The notes below the pieces were generated by a model. It made no database searches. It was not told the DNA's origin and saw only the letters and a program-made list of their open reading frames with translations. The translations under genes and the position numbers were made by a program. From assembly GCA_919902505.1 (NCBI GenBank), contig CAKKRE010000016.1, positions 186,001 through 250,000 of the forward strand: 64,000 nucleotides of DNA, read 5' to 3'. Shown here one piece after another: positions 15,056-26,910 of the stretch. Source of the DNA: Nitrospiraceae bacterium. GTDB taxonomy: Bacteria > Nitrospirota > Nitrospiria > Nitrospirales > Nitrospiraceae. Numbering within the stretch: the stretch's first letter is position 1; every line of letters starts with the position of its first letter.

Positions 15056-15451
15056 ATGGATACACGCTCGATCACACAGTTTCTCAACGAGCAGATCCCC
15101 GATCTGTTGGCCATCTACCAATTCGGCTCACAGGCCCAGGGCACCGCGCGGCCGGACAGCGACATCGATGTGGCTGTCCTGAGCGTCCACCCGATCCCCG
15201 GTGAGCAGATCTTTCATCTGGCACAGGAGCTAGCCATCCACCTTCATCGCGACGTCGACCTTGTGGACTTGCGTAGCGCTTCGACGGTGATGCGCATGCA
15301 GGTCCTCACAACGGGACAGTGCCTGGACACAAAGCACCTTCAAGCAAAGGCCGAGTTTGAAATGTACACCTACGCCGACTATGCGAGACTCAACGAGGAG
15401 CGGCGGGAGTTGGTGAAGGGCATCAAAGCGCGCGGACTTGTCTATGGCTGA
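15056..15451 (+). CDS. mntA: MntA-type nucleotidyltransferase antitoxin
   Basis: The 131-aa protein has the minimal nucleotidyltransferase motif G24-S25-x10-D36-x-D38 (FGSQAQGTARPDSDIDVAV), followed by a third acidic site in VDLVDLRS. In the type VII toxin-antitoxin family, MntA adenylylates the HepT toxin on a tyrosine near its active site. The 3' end overlaps the hepT start by 8 nt, the usual operon order. Confidence 0.85.
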   Translation: MDTRSITQFLNEQIPDLLAIYQFGSQAQGTARPDSDIDVAVLSVHPIPGEQIFHLAQELAIHLHRDVDLVDLRSASTVMRMQVLTTGQCLDTKHLQAKAEFEMYTYADYARLNEERRELVKGIKARGLVYG

Positions 15452-15857
15452 TGATGTGATCCTCAACAAGGCCGCGAGCATCGAACGGTGCCTGCACCGC
15501 ATCACCGAAGAATTTGCGGGAGACCGGCAAAACCTGGCCGCGAATCAAACCAAACAAGACGCCATCGTTCTCAACCTGCAGCGAGCCTGCGAGACCGCGA
15601 TCGATCTCGCCATGTATGTGATCAGCCAGCGACGACTCGGTCTTCCCCAAGAAAGTCGCGACGCCTTTGCGCTGCTCGAAACCGCAGGAATTCTTCCAAC
15701 CAACTTGACCACCCGCATGCAACGCATGGTCGGCTTCCGCAACGTGGCCGTGCGCGAATATATCCGCCTCAATCTCGATATCGTCCTCACAATCATCACG
15801 AAACATTTGGAAGACTTCCGCCGGTTCTCCTCGGCCATCGTCAAAGCCTGCGCGTAA
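15444..15857 (+). CDS. hepT: HepT-like ribonuclease toxin with altered active-site motif
   Basis: The ATG at 15444 overlaps the end of mntA; a TTG 6 nt earlier is less likely. The 137-aa, mostly helical protein matches HepT (DUF86). HepT ribonucleases use an R-x4-H-x-Y motif. Here the corresponding block is GFRNVAVREY, so R99 and Y106 are kept but the histidine is arginine (R104, codon CGC at 15752-15754). One A-to-G change from CAC would explain it. The protein may lack RNase activity while keeping the tyrosine that MntA modifies. It could instead be a natural variant. Confidence 0.8.
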   Translation: MADDVILNKAASIERCLHRITEEFAGDRQNLAANQTKQDAIVLNLQRACETAIDLAMYVISQRRLGLPQESRDAFALLETAGILPTNLTTRMQRMVGFRNVAVREYIRLNLDIVLTIITKHLEDFRRFSSAIVKACA

Positions 15858-16010
15858 TCGTTCCACGGGCGAGACACCCTTTCGACTTTTGGCTCCCGAT
15901 GGTCCGGGGGGAGCGATTCGCTATATGGGCTGTGGGGAGGCTGGTGAAAATCCTGAGGCGGTCACCACCAATATGCCTCCTTCCTGCACGTCCCTGAGAT
16001 CCTAAAAGTC

Positions 16011-16062
16011 TTGCGACCCTATGGCATATCCCGTATGATGTTCATGTACAGAAGATGTACAT
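16011..16062 (+). promoter_or_regulatory. vapBC promoter and twin palindromic operator
   Basis: TTGCGA (16011-16016) and TATGAT (16034-16039) are 17 bp apart, a good sigma-70 type promoter. Just downstream, two palindromic boxes, ATGTACA (16044-16050) and ATGTACAT (16055-16062), have centres 11 bp apart, about one helical turn. This is what tandem VapB dimers would bind for autorepression. The assignment is inferred from position. Confidence 0.65.
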
Positions 16063-16075
16063 CATGGAGGCTCAC

Positions 16076-16282
16076 ATGGGCGCACCATCACTCAAACACA
16101 AGCATTTGGTGCTGGATCAGCGAAAGATCAACGCAGCCAAACGTTATTTCGGAGTTCAATCCGAACAGGAGGCCGTCGACAAAGCCCTCTCACTTCTAGT
16201 GGAAGAACAGCGCCTCAACAAGGCCTTGAAACCATTGAAGGGAGTCCTGAAAGGGGACAACCGGCCGTGGCCCTACCGATAG
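16076..16282 (+). CDS. vapB: VapB-type antitoxin
   Basis: ATGs at 16055 and 16064 lie in or next to the operator. The ATG at 16076 has GGAGG 5 nt upstream and gives a 68-aa protein (MGAPSLKHKHLVLDQRKINA). The region KRYFGVQSEQEAVDKALSLLVEEQ is a ribbon-helix-helix DNA-binding segment, and the C-terminal tail (LKGVLKGDNRPWPYR) would occupy the toxin. It overlaps vapC by 16 nt. Confidence 0.82.
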   Translation: MGAPSLKHKHLVLDQRKINAAKRYFGVQSEQEAVDKALSLLVEEQRLNKALKPLKGVLKGDNRPWPYR

Positions 16283-16701
16283 GAGGGAAAGTCCTTCTCG
16301 ACACCAACGTGCTGATCGATTACTTGCGAGCCGGACTGCACGCCGAATGGGTATTGGGTGGTGGTGGCAGCATTGTCCGCTTCATTTCCGCGGTCGTCCT
16401 CTTGGAACTACGCCTCGGCGCAGACACACCTAAGCGCAAGAGAGCAGTTGACCGACTCCAGCAGGCATTTCATTCCGGACGCATGCTCGGTCTCACTCCA
16501 CCTCTCATGGATCATGCCGGACGGATCTTCCGAGCCCTCTATGGGAATGCAGCGGGAATGGGCGATCGCTTGGGTCCACTCAACGATGTGCTGATCGCGC
16601 TCACCGCGAGGCAAATCGGAGCCGCCGTCGTGACGAGCAATGTCATGGAATTTCGGCGCATTGCGGCGAAGGTGCCCGGCCTCAGAATCGTGGTTCCGTA
16701 A
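16267..16701 (+). CDS. vapC: VapC-type PIN-domain ribonuclease toxin
   Basis: It starts at GTG 16267 inside the end of vapB, with AGGGG 9 nt upstream. The 144-aa PIN domain has acidic residues D12 (LLDTNVLIDYL), E47 (VLLELRLG) and D107 (GPLNDVLIAL). The fourth position, usually D in TxNxxDF, is E128 (VTSNVMEF). VapC enzymes cut RNA, typically tRNA, when released from VapB. The Asp-to-Glu change is conservative, so activity is plausible. Confidence 0.85.
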   Translation: MALPIGGKVLLDTNVLIDYLRAGLHAEWVLGGGGSIVRFISAVVLLELRLGADTPKRKRAVDRLQQAFHSGRMLGLTPPLMDHAGRIFRALYGNAAGMGDRLGPLNDVLIALTARQIGAAVVTSNVMEFRRIAAKVPGLRIVVP

Positions 16702-16760
16702 CATCATCAAAATTTTCTCCCCTGGAATTCCCGACCCCTTCTGCACTGTGCCTTCCTGGG

Positions 16761-18068
16761 TCACAGTTTCAAGAGCTCCTTCACCGGCACCGCTGCATCG
16801 AGACGCGCCTCACAGGCGGCCACGCCTTCGCGTCGAAGCACTTCAGGAATGCGTTCACCTTCAGACAGGAGCATAAACGCCAGCCGCCCAATGGATTCGT
16901 CTGTGAGGCTGAAGAGATGCTGCAGGAACTCGACGTTCAGCTGCGACTGATGGACGGGCCAGATAGCCCTCCGAGTACGCACCAGGAATCCGTTCAGGCG
17001 ATCATGGTACTCAGCAGGATCGAGCGGACAGACATACACAGCCTGCTCCATGCCTCCCTCAGCGAGCGACACAACATCCCAGGGATGCTCCACCAGAACC
17101 ACTGAGGGGAATGTTTCGAAGCCCGTTGAGACGCTGGGCGAAGAAAAGACCAGGCGTTCTACTCGACGGGGTTGCAGAAGTCGAAAGCCGTAGGGCAAGC
17201 AGGATGAAGTGTTGCCAAGCTCAGCCGTCTCCCCCACAATCTGTTCATAGAACCCGCAGCAACGGCCCTGCCGGTCACGCACCGGCACCAAGATGGAACG
17301 ATCCGTTTCACCATTCCGCACCAGGTCTCCCTTGCAATCCAGCCATCCGGTCACCCCGGCATCGTCGAGTTGCTGAGCGTCGAAACCGGCTGCCAACAAG
17401 CTGTCCACAAGCCGACGACCGACGGCGGAAGACATCACACCGAGAGCGAAGCGCTCGATCGTGGCTTCGGTGATCCCCTGCCGCTCCAGCCAGGCGAGGG
17501 CTGACTGTCCCTCACAATCCTCGACAAGGCTATTGTGGGCCAATTCAGCCGTGGCCTCCATCATGCGTCGCAGCGCTTTCAACCACGGCCTCTTTCCTTG
17601 CAACTGTCCCACATCCAACAGTTCCCTCACCTGCCGAACCGATTCCGACAGGCTGAGCCCCTCCATGCGCCCATAGAAATCCAAAGCATGACCACCCGCA
17701 AGGCAGTCGGTGCAGAAATAGGAATCGTCACGCGCATCGACCAGAAGCGAATTGGGCCCATGTCGGCAGAACGGACAAGGGCCCTTGCCGCTATTCGAGT
17801 GATCGCCGGATCGAATGAGCGGGGTATATCGTCCGATCAATTCGACGCCATCCAAGTCGTCGAGCAGGTTCTCCCACTGTTCGACGATTGAGAGGTCCGA
17901 AATGGAGCCAACCGGACTCGGCTCAGTTTTGCCCGGCGCAGGCGGGAACGCTGGGAAGGCTTGATTGAAGCGGAACCTTCGATAAAGGCCGGCCGGCCCA
18001 TCAGTCGACAATACTGAGCTGCCCCCAACCGCCGCCAAGATCTTGAACAACACCCTCCTCGTGAACAT
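16761..18068 (-). CDS. Primase-like protein with Tat-type signal (zinc ribbon + degenerate TOPRIM), copy 1
   Basis: The 435-aa protein starts 6 nt after GGAGGG. Residues 1-20 (MFTRRVLFKILAAVGGSSVL) form a twin-arginine signal: T-R-R-x-L-F-K followed by a hydrophobic stretch. Residues 98-122 hold C98-P-F-C101 and C119-x2-C122, like the CHC2 zinc finger of DnaG but with all-Cys ligands. Residues about 150-290 resemble the DnaG N-terminal core (ITEATIERFALG; DRSILVPVRDRQGRCCGF). About 320-350 matches the TOPRIM first strand (VVLVEHPWDVVSLAEGGMEQAVY), but the DxD motif is missing. It is therefore unlikely to be an active primase. It is a paralogue of 20720-21991; palindrome TGTGAC-N7-GTCACA is upstream. 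Confidence 0.7.
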   Translation of the reverse strand: MFTRRVLFKILAAVGGSSVLSTDGPAGLYRRFRFNQAFPAFPPAPGKTEPSPVGSISDLSIVEQWENLLDDLDGVELIGRYTPLIRSGDHSNSGKGPCPFCRHGPNSLLVDARDDSYFCTDCLAGGHALDFYGRMEGLSLSESVRQVRELLDVGQLQGKRPWLKALRRMMEATAELAHNSLVEDCEGQSALAWLERQGITEATIERFALGVMSSAVGRRLVDSLLAAGFDAQQLDDAGVTGWLDCKGDLVRNGETDRSILVPVRDRQGRCCGFYEQIVGETAELGNTSSCLPYGFRLLQPRRVERLVFSSPSVSTGFETFPSVVLVEHPWDVVSLAEGGMEQAVYVCPLDPAEYHDRLNGFLVRTRRAIWPVHQSQLNVEFLQHLFSLTDESIGRLAFMLLSEGERIPEVLRREGVAACEARLDAAVPVKELLKL

Positions 18069-18135
18069 GACTTTCCCTCCTGCGATCGCAGTGAACGATC
18101 TTTGATTCCGAATAATGGAAAGCTTATGACGAGGG

Positions 18136-18154
18136 TGTGACAGAGAAGGTCACA
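18136..18154 (-). promoter_or_regulatory. Shared palindrome TGTGAC-N7-GTCACA, site 1
   Basis: On the minus strand it reads TGTGACCTTCTCTGTCACA and lies 67 nt upstream of the copy-1 primase-like gene. Conservation with site 2 continues towards the gene to a TTTCC block (18115-18119). Likely an operator or activator site; the protein that binds it is unknown. Confidence 0.6.
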
Positions 18155-18208
18155 AGAGGACGGGGGGCAAGCTATATTTTATTTGAAACAGCCAGTGCAG
18201 CGAACGGA

Positions 18209-18439
18209 TCACCGACCGGATTGGTTTCCCGGGCCATCCCACATTTCCTCCAATTGCCGGCATCTTTCAAATCGCTCCATTATTGGAATCATTTCCATCA
18301 ATATTTCCGGCGTGAGATAGGCGAGATCGTTCGAGTCAGCCCCATCGTCCACGGAAATCCGCTTCTTCATATCGGCGATGAAACGCTCGTCAATGACAAA
18401 TTGCTTGCCGCGCCAGTTGGTGTAGATATAGCTACCCAT
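18209..18439 (-). CDS. Small hypothetical protein in primase-like island
   Basis: The ATG at 18439 has GGGGAGG 7 nt upstream and is preferred to the GTG at 18469. The 76-aa soluble product begins MGSYIYTNWRGKQFVIDERF, has a central acidic patch (VDDGADSND) and a helical C-terminal part (ILMEMIPIMERFERCRQLEEMW). I recognise no family. It sits 140 bp upstream of the copy-1 primase-like gene on the same strand and has its own copy of the shared palindrome 146 nt before its start, so it may belong to the same regulon. Confidence 0.55.
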   Translation of the reverse strand: MGSYIYTNWRGKQFVIDERFIADMKKRISVDDGADSNDLAYLTPEILMEMIPIMERFERCRQLEEMWDGPGNQSGR

Positions 18440-18585
18440 CGAAAGACCTCCCCTCAACCTGAGGTTCACTCCCGGGGTCGATCGTCGCAGAACGCGAGAT
18501 TCCCGACCACGCGCACCGCGGACCGTCCCAGCTTTGTTGTCACGGATAGAGATTCAGAATGACCGAGGAAAGCCTACTACGGGGA

Positions 18586-18604
18586 TGTGACAGAAAAGGT
18601 CACA
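18586..18604 (-). promoter_or_regulatory. Shared palindrome TGTGAC-N7-GTCACA, site 2
   Basis: On the minus strand it reads TGTGACCTTTTCTGTCACA, one base different from site 1. The block towards the gene (CCCCGTAGTAGGCTTTCC) also matches site 1 (CCCTCGTCATAAGCTTTCC). It lies 146 nt upstream of the 76-aa gene. Confidence 0.6.
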
Positions 18605-18998
18605 GCACCCAAGACTATCTCGGATCGTAATTGCTCTTGTTGGCGACACAGGCCATCGCGCATAGCATTTGGTCGAGGCCACAGAAAACCGAGGGCAAGG
18701 CTGTCTCAAGGAACATCGAGGGGAATATTCAGAAGGACAGGAAATCATTTACCGTCAGTTCGTTCATGTAGATGGCGGCATTAAATCGAAATTTCTTAAT
18801 GAGCGACAATCGCACAGTCCCTTTTTCCCAGTAGCGGGCCACAGGGGCAAACCACAATCACCATCTATATTTGAACACTATGCGTCTCGCGCACATGGCT
18901 TTGCTTAATCGTAGTTCAGCGGACTTTTGCGAGATCGAAAAAGGCGTTCTAAGAACATGACGAAGCCGGTCACGAACGGATAGGTTACCTGAGAAACA
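18605..18998. other. AT-richer non-coding gap
   Basis: No frame with a good start site or family resemblance is visible on either strand. Base composition is more AT-rich than the window average. A weak relative of the shared palindrome (TGAC-N7-GTCAC, 18958-18973) lies near the 3' end of the next leftward gene. It may be a remnant of older island DNA. Confidence 0.4.
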
Positions 18999-19637
18999 CT
19001 ACGGGAAGCTTAACTGCAGATCCCGCGCAAGAACTTCCTTAAATTGACTCGCAGTGCGAAGCATCGCCTCCTTATTTGACAGATCCGAAAGATCGAATTG
19101 GGCACCACAGATTGATACACCAATTTTTTCGATCGTAACGACATTCCAGTCCGATGGATACTTAGGTAGATAGTTGATCGCTGGACGCCAAACACTTTCT
19201 TGCCAGTTCCGCCTCTCATCTATATCACTCTTGAACGCATAGATCCCAAGACGCGAGAAAGAGTCTTCCGCAACCGGGAAATCTAAGGGATTTGGCTCAC
19301 CCTTTTTCCAACTAATGCCGTCGGGGTAACCGGTATCCGAAACGAGGTGAATGGCCAACAACCATTCCCCTTTCTTCGTCTGATTTTGATCAGTAGAGAG
19401 AGAAAGAAACAAGAAGCTGACACGGTACATTGGAAGCATGTCCCAGACCCACTTATCAAATGGATTCACTGTAGTCGGCCTGTTGAATCCATAGACCGCG
19501 GAATACGGTCGAAGGCCCATTTCATTAGCGAATGTCTTGGAGAAATCTAAAATTCGCCTTTGATACAAAAACAACAAACGAAAAGCTTTTCTGACATCAA
19601 CCAAAGCCAGCTTGAGTTCATCACTATGAGACTCCAT
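18999..19637 (-). CDS. Hypothetical protein, partner of nuclease candidate
   Basis: The frame opens at 19745, but the ATG at 19637 follows AGGAAGGA and overlaps the upstream gene by 14 nt, which suggests coupling. The 212-aa product (MESHSDELKLALVDVRKAFR start) is soluble, with an N-terminal helix and a central region rich in Trp and aromatic residues (PFDKWVWDMLPMYRVSFLF). No family is recognised. The AT-richer codon use, shared with the 19624-20397 gene, suggests both arrived together by transfer. Confidence 0.55.
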   Translation of the reverse strand: MESHSDELKLALVDVRKAFRLLFLYQRRILDFSKTFANEMGLRPYSAVYGFNRPTTVNPFDKWVWDMLPMYRVSFLFLSLSTDQNQTKKGEWLLAIHLVSDTGYPDGISWKKGEPNPLDFPVAEDSFSRLGIYAFKSDIDERRNWQESVWRPAINYLPKYPSDWNVVTIEKIGVSICGAQFDLSDLSNKEAMLRTASQFKEVLARDLQLSFP

Positions 19638-20397
19638 TAGAAATCCTTCCTGCAAACTGTTCCAAACTTTCATCGCGAATCGAGGCGAAAGGCCTTGCTT
19701 CACGGCGCAAACTCTCCAACCAGGTAGGTTGTCGTGACTGGACATTGTACAATTGGAACGCCTCCAATATGTCGTTGATTACGGTCAAAATGTTCGCATC
19801 AATTGGGTGCGCAGATACAACCCTCTTCAATGCTTTGGCAATCAACTGCCATGAAGTTCCAACTAACTGCACTCGCGCTCCATCTCTGCCAAGGTTGCGC
19901 AGCGCCTCCTCAATTTGCCTACGAAAACCTATCACGCAATCATCGGTGACTTCCTCTAACCCACTCACCATCATCAACCACATTTGCCTTCCTTCAATCT
20001 CTTCGTTATATCCAAGCCACTCCAGCGCCAGCTGTTGGGCATCTTGAGAACGCTGGCCATCATTGAGCTTTGCTTCCACCGCAATATCTATTTTTTCGAA
20101 AGATAAAAAAACATCGGGTATGCATCTCATTCTATCGCTTGTTGCCTGGGAGATGTCCCAAGTAGGCCAAAACTCAGACGCTCTGAGGTTTCCTACATGC
20201 ATCGGCAAACTTCCTACTGGAATTGCGGCTTCGGACAAAACCTTCCAGAAAAGATTAGCCGGAAGATATCGTAAGCGCTCAAATACAGCCGCCGTCAGGA
20301 AATCTTCAAGGGTTCGAAACCGCTCCTTAAAACTTTCTCCCTCCGCCCCCTTTTCAAACAACATTCCAATTTTTCCATGCAAAATTGCTTGAAGCAT
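19624..20397 (-). CDS. PD-(D/E)XK nuclease-like hypothetical protein
   Basis: This 257-aa protein has P94-D95 (CIPDVFLSF) and E108-A-K110 (IDIAVEAKLNDGQ), the spacing and context of a PD-(D/E)XK nuclease core, followed by a helix with Gln residues (DAQQLALEWLGY). An N-terminal Glu (about E40, TAAVFERLRYL) could complete the active site. The family therefore probably cleaves DNA, but this is a motif-based inference. It overlaps the 212-aa gene and follows the 79-aa and primase-like genes in the same direction. Its GC content is visibly lower than the neighbours. Confidence 0.55.
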   Translation of the reverse strand: MLQAILHGKIGMLFEKGAEGESFKERFRTLEDFLTAAVFERLRYLPANLFWKVLSEAAIPVGSLPMHVGNLRASEFWPTWDISQATSDRMRCIPDVFLSFEKIDIAVEAKLNDGQRSQDAQQLALEWLGYNEEIEGRQMWLMMVSGLEEVTDDCVIGFRRQIEEALRNLGRDGARVQLVGTSWQLIAKALKRVVSAHPIDANILTVINDILEAFQLYNVQSRQPTWLESLRREARPFASIRDESLEQFAGRISNGVS

Positions 20398-20458
20398 TTA
20401 GGCACTCCCCCCATGCGATTCATCTCTAAAGCATTACTCAATTCATATCTATCAAACG

Positions 20459-20698
20459 TCATGGCCTCACACCGCACCGCAATAGCACAGACCTCCGTAA
20501 TCTGTCGATGGCATTTAGCCGAGCAATCGCGTCATCAATACTATTTACCCGCTCGAACTCCGGCCTCGCCTCGTCGAACTCCTTGCGGCAACTGATCTGC
20601 TCCTGAATGACCTGCGCCAGGGATTTGTTCAGAGTCACCTGCATGAGTGAATCGGCAGGAATCACGATCTGTAAAATGATCGGCAACAGCCATTCCAT
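20459..20698 (-). CDS. Small hypothetical protein between primase-like and nuclease-like genes
   Basis: The ATG at 20698 follows AAGGGAA at 9 nt. The 79-aa product has a hydrophobic N-terminus (MEWLLPIILQIVIPADSLM) that could be a membrane anchor, followed by a charged helical part (QEQISCRKEFDEARPEFERV). It starts 21 bp after the stop of the copy-2 primase-like gene, so it is likely in the same transcript. No family is recognised, and it is not visibly similar to the 76-aa protein. Confidence 0.5.
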   Translation of the reverse strand: MEWLLPIILQIVIPADSLMQVTLNKSLAQVIQEQISCRKEFDEARPEFERVNSIDDAIARLNAIDRLRRSVLLRCGVRP

Positions 20699-20719
20699 GA
20701 CAACATTCCCTTCTAGACC

Positions 20720-21991
20720 TCACGCCTCCAGCCACTGATGAAACGGGATAGCCTGACTCATCGCCTTGCGTACCGCCTGAGGGCCGCTCGCCTGCAGCAA
20801 TGCGAGAAGCCCGCCCTTGGACGGCACGGACATGACGCGAAGTGGCCGCCCTTCACGTTCGAGCACTTCAATAAGGCGCAAGGCCGTCACCGACCTTCGC
20901 CCCTTGGGGTCGACGCAACAAATCAAGTCTTGGCCGAGAGACAGCAGCGTCCGAAGACGAACGGGATCGGTCGCGCAGTCAAACAGATAGACGGCATTCT
21001 CGATACCGGCATTGTGCAAGGCGACGACCTCCCAGGGTGTCTCCGTAATCAACACTTTCTGGTGCCGGTTGAATTCCTGCGGCCAGGCGGGATGGGGAAA
21101 GATGAGTCTGCGCAGCCGGCGCTCCGAAACGGCCAAGGTGTCCTGCGTCCATCCTGCCTGCAGAGAGTCCTGCCGCGAGGTGAGCCTGCGTTTCATGAAT
21201 CCCCAGCTACGCCCTGCCTGATCGCAAATTGGAATGAGCAGGTGGCCGCCGCCATATCGATCGATCAGCTTTTCCTCACCCGCTTCGTTCACCCGAACCG
21301 TTTGCAGGAGCTTGGGAATCACATACCCTTCCGCCACCAAGTGGCGGCTTAAGAGATCATCCGGATCGTGCGGGGCATACCCAAGCCGAAACCGTTCGAT
21401 CGTGGACGGCGCGATCCCTTGTTCGGCCAGACACTCCCGAGCCACTGCCCCTTCCGGTCTTACGCACAGCAAGGCATGGTAGAAGCGCGCCGCCTCCTCC
21501 AACATTCTGTACGCATGTTCGTTTTCACGACGACGCCCCTTGAGCACCCCGTCTGTCAACAGCGCATCAAGGCGCGCCGCCGCCACCTCATGCGGCAGTC
21601 CTTCAGCTCTGGCGTAACACTCAATCGCGGATCCCTCAGCCTCGCACCACCTGCAGCGAAAAGATTCCGGCCCCACGCGAAAACCAGCCTCACCACAAAA
21701 CGGGCAATGGGAACTCCCCCGGATCAGATTGATCTCGGCTGAACAGGTCATGCTTCGCGCCGAAGCCACGTACGCGACTACCTCAATACAGTCCAAGTCA
21801 TCTTTGAGGTTTTCGAACCATTCGCTCTCCAGGAGCGATCTTTCTGGCTGTGAGGAAAAAATTTCAGAAGGCGGATTCCGCCCCGGCCGCAACTCCATTG
21901 CTGCACCACTGGCGGACCGGTCAAGCCATGGCGCGAACGTACCCAGCCCAAGTGTGACGGCGAACTTGAAGAGATTTCGTCTCGTCAGCAT
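20720..21991 (-). CDS. Primase-like protein with Tat-type signal (zinc ribbon + degenerate TOPRIM), copy 2
   Basis: The 423-aa protein starts 4-6 nt after GGGGGAGGG. Residues 1-31 are a full Tat-type signal: T-R-R-N-L-F-K, a hydrophobic region FAVTLGLGTFAPWL and a possible A-x-A type site near SASGAA. A zinc ribbon follows (C96-P-F-C99, C113-x2-C116). The middle has the DnaG core blocks IAPSTIERFRLGYAPHD and LLIPICDQAGRSWGFMKR, then a TOPRIM-like strand (VLITETPWEVVALHNAGIENAVY) and a second strand CVDPKGRRSV where DnaG has DGDxAG. Catalytic acids are therefore largely lost. It shares ENLKDDLDCIEVV with copy 1 (ENLLDDLDGVELI). It heads a leftward run of four genes and has palindrome site 3 upstream. 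Confidence 0.7.
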   Translation of the reverse strand: MLTRRNLFKFAVTLGLGTFAPWLDRSASGAAMELRPGRNPPSEIFSSQPERSLLESEWFENLKDDLDCIEVVAYVASARSMTCSAEINLIRGSSHCPFCGEAGFRVGPESFRCRWCEAEGSAIECYARAEGLPHEVAAARLDALLTDGVLKGRRRENEHAYRMLEEAARFYHALLCVRPEGAVARECLAEQGIAPSTIERFRLGYAPHDPDDLLSRHLVAEGYVIPKLLQTVRVNEAGEEKLIDRYGGGHLLIPICDQAGRSWGFMKRRLTSRQDSLQAGWTQDTLAVSERRLRRLIFPHPAWPQEFNRHQKVLITETPWEVVALHNAGIENAVYLFDCATDPVRLRTLLSLGQDLICCVDPKGRRSVTALRLIEVLEREGRPLRVMSVPSKGGLLALLQASGPQAVRKAMSQAIPFHQWLEA

Positions 21992-22037
21992 GACACCCTC
22001 CCCCCGACAATTTGATGGGGGAAAACTAACAGGCAGA

Positions 22038-22056
22038 CGTGACAGAGAATGTCACA
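22038..22056 (-). promoter_or_regulatory. Shared palindrome GTGAC-N7-GTCAC, site 3
   Basis: On the minus strand it reads TGTGACATTCTCTGTCACG, 47 nt before the copy-2 primase-like gene. A TTTTCC block follows at the same relative position as in sites 1 and 2. It lies between that gene and the WYL regulator gene. Confidence 0.6.
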
Positions 22057-22154: not shown

Positions 22155-23150
22155 CTAGCGATAGCGCTCTAGGGCGCGAGCTAAGTGAGAGGTGACAGCA
22201 TCAACCAGCGCTTGAGGTTCCAACACTCTCGCCGCCGGCCCCCAGGAGAGAACCCAGGAGGCAAGTTCATCCATTCCGCCTGCGGTAATGGTGGCGATCA
22301 CGGAGCCGTCTTTTTGAATTTCGTTCTCCTGACTCGGATGCCAGCGGCGCTCCTTCACCAGATAAGCGACATCCGGGGCGAACTGGATGCGGACAGTTTG
22401 AGCCGGTTCATCGACCAAGCCGAACAGGTTGTTATAGATCTGCTCCACCTGTAATTCTTCGGGCAGACTGAACCGCTCCTCAAGAACTTCAACCGAGACT
22501 ACCCGCTCCACCGCGAACATGCGCAAGGCCTCGGCCCGGTGCGAATAGCCGACCAGATACAACCCAAACTGGTACAGCAACAGCAGATAGGGATCGACAC
22601 GATGTTCCGTCGACTCCTCGTAATCCGGCCTGCGATGCTCAAGGACGACGGTGCACTGCAGGAGTAACGCCTTCTGGAGTTGCTGGAGAACAACCTTCTG
22701 TCCCGCATAGTCCCGCACCGGCCCGGAGCGAGGCAGAAACACCTGATTGATGCGCGCCAGGTGATTGAACACCCTGTGCGATAAGCCGCCCTCGACTTTC
22801 TCGATGAGACTGTCGAGATCATCGACAAACGGTGTGCCCGCCAAATAGTCGAGATGGCGCTTGGCAAAATGCAACGCCATGAGTTCATAGGGAGACACCG
22901 TAATCGGCGGGAGGCCCTTGTAGCCCAGCGGCAGGTGCCAGGTCTTTTCCCCATCACCGTCCGATTGCTCCAGAGGATGTCCTTCTTCATGGATTCGATC
23001 CAGATCGCGATAGACCTGCCGCTTCGTCACCTCGAAGGCTTCGGCCAGATCCTTAACCGTCATCGACCGACTCGCCAGTGCGCGCAACATGCGAGCAAGC
23101 CGGTCGGCCTGGCTATAGGCTTTGGGACGTCGTCCTCTTTGTGCTGCCAT
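22155..23150 (-). CDS. HTH-WYL transcriptional regulator
   Basis: The frame starts with GTG at 23174, but the ATG at 23150 with AAGGGGGGAGG before it is better (331 aa). Residues 15-70 form a DeoR/HTH_11-type winged helix (MTVKDLAEAFEVTKRQVYRDLDRI). Residues about 140-215 are a WYL domain (VVLEHRRPDYEESTEHRVDPYLLLLYQFGLYLVGY), and a WCX-type C-terminal region follows. Proteins of this kind bind ligands, often nucleic acid or nucleotides, and frequently control defence loci. It is 164 bp upstream of the copy-2 primase-like gene in the same direction and is a candidate binder of the shared palindrome. Confidence 0.85.
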   Translation of the reverse strand: MAAQRGRRPKAYSQADRLARMLRALASRSMTVKDLAEAFEVTKRQVYRDLDRIHEEGHPLEQSDGDGEKTWHLPLGYKGLPPITVSPYELMALHFAKRHLDYLAGTPFVDDLDSLIEKVEGGLSHRVFNHLARINQVFLPRSGPVRDYAGQKVVLQQLQKALLLQCTVVLEHRRPDYEESTEHRVDPYLLLLYQFGLYLVGYSHRAEALRMFAVERVVSVEVLEERFSLPEELQVEQIYNNLFGLVDEPAQTVRIQFAPDVAYLVKERRWHPSQENEIQKDGSVIATITAGGMDELASWVLSWGPAARVLEPQALVDAVTSHLARALERYR

Positions 23151-23189
23151 CCTCCCCCCTTCTTTGCCTCTCACTGCGTCAACGAACGG

Positions 23190-23981: not shown

Positions 23982-24123
23982 AGAGTTCTCCGATGAGTGG
24001 GCCATTATACAAATCTGCCCGGGTGGATCACACAGGTCTCAGCTCCGACGCCGGCAGGTGACATTGCAGACGACTGCAGCGCTTGCTACGATGGTCGGTC
24101 TTTCTCCGGAAGGAACCGCTGCC

Positions 24124-26910
24124 GTGGCACACCGTAGTCCGCCAAATCACACCACCAACGACTTGATCGTCGAAGGCGCGCGCCAGAACAATCTCAAGAA
24201 CATCTCACTGCGGATTCCGCACGACAAGGTCACGGCCATCACCGGCCTGTCAGGATCCGGCAAATCCTCGCTGGCCTTCGACACCTTATTCGCAGAGGGA
24301 CAGTGGCGGTATGTGGAATCGCTCTCGACCTACGCGCGGATGTTTCTCGACAAGGTGAACCGGCCCGACGTCGACCGCATCACCAACATCCGTCCCGCAA
24401 TCGCAATCGAACAGAAAAATCCGATCCGCACCGCCCGTTCGACAGTCGGCACCGCCACCGAACTTGCCGACCTGCTACGGCTGCTGTTCGCCAAAATCGG
24501 CAAACCCGTCTGCCCGGATTGCAAACAGGAGGCGCGTGGCTACCATCCAGGGTCGGTGGCCGAGGAACTGCTGGCACGATTTCCCGACGCGCGGGCGATG
24601 GTGCTCTTTCCCCTCAAGGATCTCGGACCGGGCCACGACCGCTCGCTGCTCGACTCACTCTTGAAGCGAGGATTTACCAGACTACGCTGCGGCGAGGAAC
24701 TGCTGGATCTGCACGAGCAGGCCGTGCTTCCGGAGACCCGCGAATCGGGCATCCAGGTCGTGCTGGATCGACTCGTCCTCAGACCGGATAACCGCCACCG
24801 GTTGATCGAGGCCATCGAAACGGCGTTTCAGGAAGCCGAAGGCACCTGCCAGGTCCTGGTGATCGGGCAGGGGCTCCGGACCTACAGCACCCACTTTCGC
24901 TGTCAGGGCTGCGGGCGGACCTTCGAACCGTTGCGCCCGCTGCTGTTTTCCTTCAACCACCCGTTGGGAGCCTGCCCGGAATGCAAAGGCTTCGGCAATA
25001 TCCTGCAATACGACAGGGATCTGGTGATCCCCGACCGCAGCAAATCGCTGGCCGGCGGCGTGATCGAGCCCTGGAGCAAACCTGGCTCGGATTGGTGGCA
25101 GAAGCAGATATTGCTGGCGATGAAAAAACAGGGCGTCGATTTGACGGCCCCTTTTCAGGAGCTTCCCGAAGCGGTGCAACAGCTGATTTGGGAAGGAAGC
25201 AAGGACGTTGAAGGCATTCGGCAATACTTCGACTATCTGGAAACCAAACGTTACAAGCTCCATGTGCGGGTGCTGCTCAGCCGCTACCGCAGTCCGTCCA
25301 CCTGTCCGACCTGCCATGGCAGCCGCCTGAAGCCGGCCGCCCGGTTCGTCAAACTGGCAGGGCAGGATATCGTGGAGATCGGCGAACTCACCATTGAAGC
25401 CGCAGCCGCCTGGTTCGAGCGCCTGGCCCTGCCAGCCTTCGACGCGGAGGTCGCAAAGGATATTCTGCGCCAGCTGCATGCGAAGCTGAACTTTCTGCTG
25501 CGCGTAGGATTGAGCTACCTCACCCTGTCACGGCAGACCAAAACCTTATCCGGTGGAGAAGCGCAACGAATTGCACTAGCCAACCAGCTGGGCTCTCGTT
25601 TAGTGGGCACACTCTACGTATTGGATGAACCGACGATCGGCCTGCATCCCCGCGACACGGACACCCTGGCCGGGATCCTTCGCGATCTCGCCAATCATGG
25701 CAACACCGTCGTCGTGGTGGAGCACGATCCCTTGATGATTCAGGCTGCCGACCACATCGTCGAAATGGGACCCGGTTCGGGCGAGCAGGGCGGACACATC
25801 GTCTGCGCGGCGCCACGGGAACAATTCCTCGCCGATCAGGCCTCACTCACCGCCCGTTACCTCCGCGGGGACAACCGCATTCCTCTGCCGAAGATGCGAC
25901 GTTCGGGCAACGGCAAGGCCCTAAGCATCGCCGGCGCAGCTGAGCACAATCTCAAGCATCTCATGGTCCGCATTCCGCTCCACATGTTGGTCTGCGTCAC
26001 CGGCGTTTCGGGATCGGGCAAAAGCACCCTCATCGAAAAGACGCTGTACCGTGCCGCCGCCCGCGCCTTTCGCATCGAGTCGCTCCCGATGGGAAAGTTT
26101 CAGGCCATCAAGGGACTCGAACATGTGAAAGGCGTGCGGCTCATCGACCAACAACCGATCGGCCGGACGCCGCGCTCCAACCCCATCACCTACCTAAAGG
26201 CCTTCGACGAGATCCGCACCCTGTTCGCTTCCGAGCGGGAGGCCCTGCGCCGGGGCCTGACACCCGGGCACTTCTCCTTCAATTCCGCCGATGGACGCTG
26301 CGAGCGCTGCGAAGGGAACGGGTATGAAAAGCTGGAGATGTATTTCTTCGAAGACATCTATGCCACCTGCGAGCAATGCGACGGCAAGCGCTTCAAACCG
26401 GAGGTGCTGAGCATCCGGTATCGAGGCAAAACGATCCACGATGTGCTGAACCTCACCGTGACAGAGGCGCAGGGCTTTTTCTCGGGATCACCGAAGTTGA
26501 CCGAGAAACTCTACCTGCTGTCGTCGATCGGATTGGGCTACCTGCGGCTGGGCCAGGCAGCCACCACGCTGTCGGGCGGAGAAGCACAACGGCTAAAGAT
26601 CGCCGCCGAATTGAAAGATCCTTCGGCGCACAACCTGCTCTATATCCTCGATGAGCCGACCACCGGCCTGCATCTCGACGACATTAAGAAGCTGCTGACC
26701 GTCCTGCACAAACTCGTGGACGCCGGCAACACCCTCATCGTCGTCGAACACAATTTGGATGTCATTAAGACGGCCGATTGGGTGATCGACCTCGGACCGG
26801 AAGGAGGCGAAGCAGGCGGACAGATCGTGGCCGAAGGACGCCCGGAGCAGGTCGCGAAAGTGGCCCAGTCCCACACGGGACAGTTTCTGGCGAAAATACT
26901 GCAGAGCTAA
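24124..26910 (+). CDS. uvrA: UvrA-family excision repair ATPase
   Basis: Frames open at 24058 (GTG) and 24091 (ATG), but the GTG at 24124 has GGAAGGAA 8 nt upstream and best fits UvrA N-termini (928 aa). There are two ABC ATPase halves, with Walker [10 protein letters not shown] and GVSGSGKST and signature motifs LSGGEAQR twice. Zinc sites are CQGC...CPEC and CERCEGNG...CEQCDGKRF. Blocks such as [17 protein letters not shown] match UvrA. It would recognise bulky DNA damage with UvrB. Whether it is the main UvrA or a second UvrA2-type copy cannot be decided from one window. Confidence 0.9.

Follow-up and report, generated by a model that had tools for sequence, protein, structure and literature searches.

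What does it mean that one palindrome stands upstream of three separate genes within a few kilobases (kb) of bacterial DNA, and how far does the system behind it reach? The stretch in question, hereafter the window, comprises 64,000 nucleotides from a Nitrospiraceae bacterium (assembly GCA_919902505.1, contig CAKKRE010000016.1, positions 186,001 to 250,000 of the forward strand). An earlier interpretation made from the letters alone (the sequence-only reading) had noticed in it the palindrome TGTGAC-N7-GTCACA before two genes for primase-like proteins and a gene for a protein of 76 amino acids (aa), and had proposed a small regulon within 6 kb, linked to a neighbouring regulator of the WYL family. 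Here, the palindrome is described as one part of a promoter unit that recurs, dispersed, in many Nitrospiraceae genomes, mainly before CRISPR-Cas and restriction-modification operons. We think there is a good chance that the palindromes are sites of a homodimeric WYL activator of the DriD type, acting at a promoter shared by defence operons.

A promoter unit of fixed geometry

The palindromes are found where they had been reported, two as exact copies (18136-18154 and 18586-18604) and one with a single mismatch (22038-22056), far above chance: at no more than one mismatch, the window contains four matches versus 0.13 expected, and four were reached by no shuffle. The fourth match (16747-16765), located just 3' of primase-like copy 1, lacks a -10-like block. 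At up to three mismatches, the bare palindrome is uninformative (20 observed versus 24.4 expected).

The three sites are co-oriented and each one is located upstream of a leftward gene, as the sequence-only reading had it. The second block which that reading had described as similar to TAxGCTTTCC is also real, and corresponds to a -10-like TANNNT exactly 10 base pairs (bp) past the palindrome. On the minus strand, which is the strand of the target genes, all three sites follow the pattern GTGAC-N7-GTCAC-N10-TANNNT with a constant N10, the hexamers being TAAGCT, TAGGCT and TAGTTT, and TTCC after the -10 is common to the window copies. This extended pattern has three matches in the window versus 0.03 expected, and three were reached by no shuffle. 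Palindrome and -10-like element together form one promoter unit, and the three window sites are very likely real regulatory promoter elements. With the T of TANNNT taken as -12, the palindrome covers the positions from about -39 to -23. At the three sites no -35 element was recognised, as the hexamers 16-18 bp upstream of the -10 match TTGACA at only 0-1 of 6 positions.

Distribution in Nitrospirota

A motif that is frequent throughout the genome without relation to gene starts would have spoken against a regulatory role, but this is not what the counts show. In the source genome, GTGAC-N7-GTCAC occurs at 17 places versus 3 for the reversed control, and the extended pattern at five: the three window sites plus two more that precede a type I restriction-modification operon (on C2 of this genome) and a Cas3-type CRISPR gene (on C30). 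With two mismatches allowed, the extended pattern gives 31/34 matches versus 24/22 in the control; since these are mostly chance, counts were restricted to exact matches.

Among 147 genomes of the family, the exact extended pattern has 124 sites, spread over 52 genomes, versus 6 for the reversed control. Nine wrong -10 spacings gave 90 matches in total (10 per spacing) and nine wrong inner spacings gave 75 (8.3 per spacing). Two classes of spacer can be distinguished: (i) YTTYTCT-like, in the modules with the window-type regulator (WYL-1) and a primase-like protein (hereafter pseudo-primase); and (ii) CCCGGAT-like, elsewhere. In a sample of the phylum, 58 of 395 genomes have a match. The 14 further stretches with phylum-level sites that were fetched (13 outside the family and one, G431, inside it) include three that resemble chance matches (L268, L269, L262), one in which the site is followed by a type I-C CRISPR system (L266), one with a WYL gene, the site and a type I-G CRISPR system (L267), and one with a WYL gene and then the site (L261).

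Using primase-like copy 2 as query in the same 147 genomes, pseudo-primase relatives distinct from DnaG were found in 13 genomes besides the source genome. The palindrome is present upstream of the pseudo-primase in 13/13 of them, 11 times as an exact copy and twice with a single mismatch, and TANNNT always follows after precisely N10; as these loci were picked by protein homology, the -10 played no part in their selection. All 13 loci have a WYL gene as neighbour. A scan of named genomes yielded nine loci, labelled Nitrospira or Nitrospirae except for one uncultured Nitrosospira, of which only L248, L253 and L254 add to the earlier ones. In L253, from Nitrospira moscoviensis NSP M-1, a WYL gene is followed by GTGAC-ATAGTCT-GTCAC-N10-TAGCCT and then by a pseudo-primase, while in L254 the site deviates at a single base (GTGCC) and is followed at N10 by TAGGGT.

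Genes downstream of the sites

From 108 fetched loci, 121 distinct sites were parsed. Recognised defence operons follow 70 of these 121 sites, namely: (i) restriction-modification systems (33 sites); (ii) CRISPR-Cas systems (27); and (iii) other defence-type gene clusters (10). A further 20 belong to the pseudo-primase module, a count that is one too low, as the site L064:8741 precedes a pseudo-primase but had been labelled unassigned by the frame caller.

The longest genes downstream of the sites were labelled with PADLOC, in a set of 83 (87 selected by script, minus L061, L064 and L141, which belong to the WYL-1 module, and one duplicate). For L150 the HsdM gene was substituted for the longest one, and 17 sites had no gene of at least 200 aa in the fetched flank. 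The longest downstream gene encodes Cas3 in 17/44 and 9/39 cases and MTase_I in 10/44; by contrast, neither Cas3 nor MTase_I turned up among 33 genes taken from random regions of these genomes, where only three families matched, with one member each. Cluster representatives were confirmed by PADLOC as REase_I, Cas8c, Cas7c, Cas5c, Cas7e, Cas8e, MTase_I and Helicase_II. The labels derived from PADLOC are Cas3, Cas8c, Cas7c, Cas5c, Cas8e, Cas7e, Cas8g, MTase_I, REase_I, Specificity_I, MTase_III and Helicase_II, and those of Tat signals, toxin-antitoxin systems and leaders were assigned by eye. The flag for sites in the interior of open reading frames, given by a simple frame caller, was discarded because spurious antisense frames dominate in GC-rich DNA.

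Since the extended unit is dispersed over many genomes before defence operons, the regulon is not confined to 6 kb, and this part of the sequence-only reading has to be given up. On the sequence evidence, the window sites are placed in the WYL-1 branch of a putative DriD-type promoter family, which would serve a dispersed defence regulon in Nitrospirota.

Two kinds of small protein were also observed next to the sites. The proteins of clusters C2 (22 sites) and C6 (13 sites) are small, begin like a signal peptide and carry Asn-Pro-Phe-rich repeats; they are often encoded by the first gene past the site, as in G000:C2:212197 (L194) and many class II loci. In other lineages (L198, L201, L203, L205, L206, L220, L222, L226), the gene that comes first after the site encodes a VWA-like protein of small size (cluster C10, 8 sites).

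The WYL regulator and its published relatives

The WYL protein of the window has the Pfam domain order HTH_11, WYL, WCX. Its closest solved relative by sequence is DriD (8tp8, E 5.1e-17), followed by PafC, and its predicted model (predicted template modelling score, pTM, 0.48) retrieves with Foldseek DriD (E 9.9e-21), PafBC (about 1e-15), and BrxR and CapW (about 1e-8 to 1e-7); identity to DriD is only about 24% over the fold alignment. No second WYL gene was found beside it, that is, neither a PafB-PafC pair nor a fusion. At the level of genomes, a WYL match (E 1e-25) was found in 50 of the 52 with an exact site versus 28 of the 95 without one (Fisher p 1.6e-16, kinship ignored). Likewise, 24 of the 121 sites begin at most 300 bp from the end of a WYL gene on the same strand, and several WYL-1 relatives without a pseudo-primase have a variant site directly behind the gene. 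The link that had been drawn between the palindromes and the neighbouring WYL regulator is plausible: this WYL protein, for which DriD is the closest relative, adjoins the sites, and WYL genes co-occur with them.

A second WYL paralogue (about 32% identical; in the source genome G000:C12:91752-92708, L225) accompanies the CCCGGAT-like class. Its best matches in the PDB are PafBC (1.6e-18) and DriD (6.7e-16). It is present in nearly all the sampled genomes of the genus, and no exact site lies right behind the copy of the source genome. As a separate observation, the PADLOC model for Cas3c (PDLC01766) matches residues 10-326 of the window WYL protein (22155-23150) at E 9.2e-37; the model thus includes a WYL-like part, and natural WYL-Cas3 fusions may exist.

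Among published systems, the closest is that of Caulobacter, in which the WYL protein DriD activates a response to DNA damage that is independent of SOS. Its consensus is ATACGAC-N7-GTCGTAT, it activates from a site that overlaps the -35 at a constant distance to the -10, its promoters lack a good -35 (1-2/6 matches), and its targets include dnaG (PMC12340889). Aligned by script, the published promoters read ACGAC-CGTTTCT-GTCGC-N10-CAATCT (driD, reverse strand), ACGTC-CGTTTCT-GGCGC-N10-CAAGGT (didA) and ATGTT-CTCTTCT-GGCGC-N10-CAAGCC (bapE, a weak match to the palindrome with a second, equally weak placement) (PMC12340889). The window units resemble them in the following: (i) the 5-7-5-N10-hexamer layout of all three promoters; (ii) the spacer, as CGTTTCT of driD and CTTTTCT of the window site at 18586 are one base apart; (iii) the winged helix-turn-helix (wHTH)-WYL-WCX architecture of the regulator, the GAC-N7-GTC core and the absent -35; and (iv) the link with primases, since DriD targets the primase gene dnaG and the window sites precede primase-like genes. 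The targets differ, being here defence operons and pseudo-primases.

The mycobacterial regulator PafBC recognises, at its P1 or RecA-independent promoters, the motif tTGTCRgtg-N8-TannnT (PMC5656591). Both are WYL systems, and the window sites, with TGTC-N12-TANNNT, share the TGTC-to-TA distance; nevertheless, they carry ACA or ACG in place of RGTG and so do not contain the P1 motif itself. Besides, PafBC is a B/C pair with damage-repair targets whose motif is not presented as a palindrome (PMC5656591), whereas here there is one WYL gene of 339 aa. In view of the 5-7-5-N10 layout, equal to that of the DriD promoters, and of the PafBC P1 spacing, the window sites are read as promoters of a WYL activator. 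SiwR of Mycobacterium smegmatis, also a homodimeric WYL activator, has a 19-bp imperfect palindrome just upstream of the -10, but it serves a single adjacent operon of DinB/YfiT genes, not defence (PMC10693628). RptR, which represses type I restriction-modification systems, belongs to a different kind of repressor (PMC12255303).

Activator promoters of the DriD/PafBC type are a known kind of element; a dispersed defence regulon and a putatively exported pseudo-primase as leader appear to be new. Among the papers listed in the literature searched, which largely excludes subscription journals and preprints, none dealt with a WYL-controlled set of defence genes in Nitrospira or with a primase homologue exported by the twin-arginine translocation (Tat) pathway.

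Proposed mechanism and alternative explanations

In the mechanism that we propose, the palindrome would bind a homodimeric DriD-type WYL activator in place of the missing -35, 10 bp upstream of a weak -10 (TANNNT), and the housekeeping RNA polymerase would start only with an activated WYL dimer bound. Window sites are likely bound by a WYL protein, and activation by it is probable, judging from layout and homology. The likely regulator would be the WYL protein of Table 1, with three targets: (i) the operon of pseudo-primase B, the 79-aa protein and PDC-M15A-B; (ii) the 76-aa gene; and (iii) pseudo-primase A. Elsewhere in the genome, WYL paralogues reading the CCCGGAT-like spacer may serve scattered defence operons, CRISPR-Cas and restriction-modification ones among them. 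The proposed role is that of a defence regulon, for which single-stranded DNA is a possible trigger, as it is for DriD and PafBC. The sites, their constant geometry, their conservation, their placement ahead of defence operons and the kinship of the WYL protein with DriD are seen directly in the sequences. We infer this trigger, like WYL binding, activation and regulation in trans, from these likenesses; regulation in trans is assumed for many sites because a WYL gene lies upstream on the same strand, within the fetched flanks, in just 60 of the 121.

That last count also weighs against a DriD-type activator, as do several other observations. With regard to the sites, 31 of the 121 have no assigned target and some look like chance, e.g., those inside long open frames (L139, L171). 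The half-sites are GTGAC here and ACGAC in DriD, with a different outer base (TGAC..GTCA versus CGAC..GTCG), and the Caulobacter -10 elements start with CA, the window ones with TA. With regard to the regulator, the structure model has a pTM of 0.48, and the association of WYL genes and sites among genomes takes no account of relatedness. Two genomes with an exact site (G001, G049) have no WYL match at E 1e-25. Conversely, 28 genomes combine a WYL match with the absence of an exact site. Next to several of the WYL-1-like genes in these genomes there is a variant site, and those of L117, L120 and L130 have not even a variant site adjacent. Finally, an activator or a repressor alike could occupy this promoter position.

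It is unlikely, though this alternative survives best, that the sites are operators of a WYL repressor in the style of BrxR and CapW, which would silence defence genes until infection, when a ligand releases the block on polymerase. These regulators, of BREX and CBASS respectively, are WYL proteins already tied to phage defence, and they are repressors with palindromes that overlap or lie past the -10 of defence promoters (PMC9122601, PMC9122588). A dimer bound from -39 to -23 would also be in a position to block polymerase. Nevertheless, the window palindromes lie upstream of the -10 at one fixed distance and not at or past it. Moreover, BrxR and CapW each repress one adjacent island, whereas the sites described here are at the -35 position, dispersed and before many types of system. 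No usable -35 is visible, so that basal activity in need of repression is not evident; the geometry equals that of the DriD activator promoters, and the fold is far nearer to DriD and PafBC (E 1e-20 and 1e-15) than to BrxR and CapW (about 1e-8).

Quite improbable is the reading of GTCAC-N10-TANNNT as the promoter of an alternative sigma factor, in which case the left half of the palindrome would be there by accident or would serve as an additional activator site. Two blocks at a fixed distance, as found here, are a hallmark of sigma-factor promoters too. But across the homology-picked pseudo-primase loci the left half, GTGAC, shows no weaker conservation than the right one, WYL genes co-occur with the sites and often abut them, and near-symmetric halves at one spacing point to a dimer.

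The three window copies might also be recent promoter duplicates that merely accompanied the duplication of the pseudo-primase genes and share no regulation, in line with the paralogy of pseudo-primases A and B (27% identical) and the shared TTCC; this is very improbable, since neutral duplicates would not retain the unit, which is kept before homologues about 30-80% identical in 13 other genomes despite diverged surrounding bases, and before unrelated defence operons. Least credible of all is a regulator of the CRP/FNR or LexA type: co-occurrence and adjacency point to WYL, and although the half-site TGTGA..TCACA resembles that of CRP, a CRP-like site was rejected, in agreement with the sequence-only reading, because the spacer (TGTGA-N9-TCACA) is 3 bp longer than that of the CRP consensus (TGTGA-N6-TCACA).

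A wider generalisation of the DriD-type activator is offered only tentatively, and we would sooner expect it to fail than to hold. According to it, a single damage-style regulon would cover the immune systems of Nitrospirota: CRISPR-Cas I-C, I-E and I-G; restriction-modification types I and III; helicase systems; PDC-M15; and others. It would consist of WYL activators that sense single-stranded DNA and a portable promoter, GTGAC-N7-GTCAC-N10-TANNNT. Any defence cassette acquiring this promoter would join, and the first gene would often be a constant leader; one such leader would be a primase homologue that is exported and has lost its catalytic activity, a new defence component.

Relevance for bacterial defence

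As to how bacteria coordinate their many defence systems, the WYL regulators of defence considered above, BrxR and CapW, are local repressors. If the proposed regulon is true, immune genes would be swappable behind a common switch, with one promoter syntax for CRISPR-Cas, restriction-modification and candidate systems, and antiviral defence would be tied to the logic of the activators DriD and PafBC, which sense single-stranded DNA. The data suggest that, in Nitrospira-type bacteria, a single type of trigger may activate many defences. In practical terms, the promoter signature is a search tool for new defence genes, and the unassigned operons behind the sites, including the pseudo-primase module, are direct candidates. 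The complete genome of N. moscoviensis carries the module, which provides a testable organism.

The pseudo-primase module and its neighbours

The features of the module are listed in Table 1. The sequence-only reading had called two of its genes primase-like, which stands as far as the fold is concerned. The pseudo-primase gene is separate from the cell's own DnaG, and its product matches a DnaG profile at E 5.3e-31. The model of pseudo-primase B (mean predicted local distance difference test, pLDDT, 77) has the fold of the DnaG RNA-polymerase domain, with Foldseek TMt values of 0.49-0.69 to DnaG structures, and the zinc-binding site is also shared with DnaG. However, the two proteins score 72.9 and 84.4 bits with TIGR01391 (DnaG), far below the cut-off of 283.6, and they have only 423-435 aa. 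An alignment of 16 homologues shows the twin arginines and all four cysteines without exception; the position of the Toprim glutamate varies, and the DxD pair is kept in 0/16 (one has DxE). This alignment leaves out broken, short or fragmentary copies (G018, G038, G042, and short copies in L062 and L065), which stay in the site counts. The N-terminus MLTRRNLFK of pseudo-primase B, with the hydrophobic stretch that follows, is by eye what we take to be a Tat-like signal. Given this N-terminus and a Toprim acidic pair that is not conserved, the proteins are probably not primases.

Table 1. Features of the module in the window
Feature	Positions	Strand	Description
Pseudo-primase A (primase-like copy 1)	16761..18068	-	435 aa; Tat-like MFTRRVLFK; CHC2-type zinc finger; no DxD; Pfam PF01807 2.6e-09; TIGR01391 2.2e-20, below cut-off
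Promoter unit, primase-like copy 1	18121..18153	-	GTGAC-CTTCTCT-GTCAC (18137-18153), N10, TAAGCT (18121-18126); 0 mismatches; conserved counterpart before homologous gene in relatives
76-aa protein	18209..18439	-	86 aa from GTG at 18469; conserved in module; homologues in relatives; no Pfam match
Promoter unit, 76-aa gene	18571..18603	-	GTGAC-CTTTTCT-GTCAC (18587-18603), N10, TAGGCT (18571-18576); also before 76-aa homologues in L061, L062, L065
PDC-M15B-like protein	18999..19745	-	Candidate defence partner; PADLOC PDLC04468 E 1.8e-43
PDC-M15A-like protein	19624..20397	-	Candidate defence gene, cargo after pseudo-primase B; PADLOC PDLC04455 E 6.8e-38
79-aa protein	20459..20698	-	Directly after pseudo-primase B in most relatives; tblastn: L061-L065, L067, L068, L070, others
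Pseudo-primase B (primase-like copy 2)	20720..21991	-	423 aa; N-terminus MLTRRNLFK, Tat-like; zinc site with four Cys; DnaG-like core lacking DxD
Promoter unit, primase-like copy 2	22023..22055	-	GTGAC-ATTCTCT-GTCAC (22039-22055), N10, TAGTTT (22023-22028); upstream of pseudo-primase in 13/13 other carrier genomes
WYL regulator, proposed DriD-like activator	22155..23174	-	wHTH-WYL-WCX, 339 aa (331 aa from ATG at 23150); Pfam WYL 2.7e-14, WCX 2.5e-19

The PDC-M15A and PDC-M15B genes overlap inside the pseudo-primase operon (18999-20397) and are adjacent, as the PADLOC definition asks of the pair. In relatives, their place is taken by Mrr-type nucleases (L062, L070), by an N-terminal domain of GmrSD (L064) or by genes without a match. 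With such different cargo at the same place, the module looks like a defence cassette, composed, as judged by gene order, of a constant leader gene and exchangeable cargo.

Beyond the module, a gene for a UvrA-like protein of 950 aa (24058-26910) forms a conserved flank of the island, with other flank genes which we take to be nitrilase-like, AlgH-like and then of the DUF, MBL and CAAX types; the same flank recurs in relatives, which indicates a shared insertion hot spot. On the other side, the gene pairs that adjoin the island (15056-16701), presumably nucleotidyltransferase/HEPN-like and antitoxin/PIN-like, have homologues that shift position between relatives.

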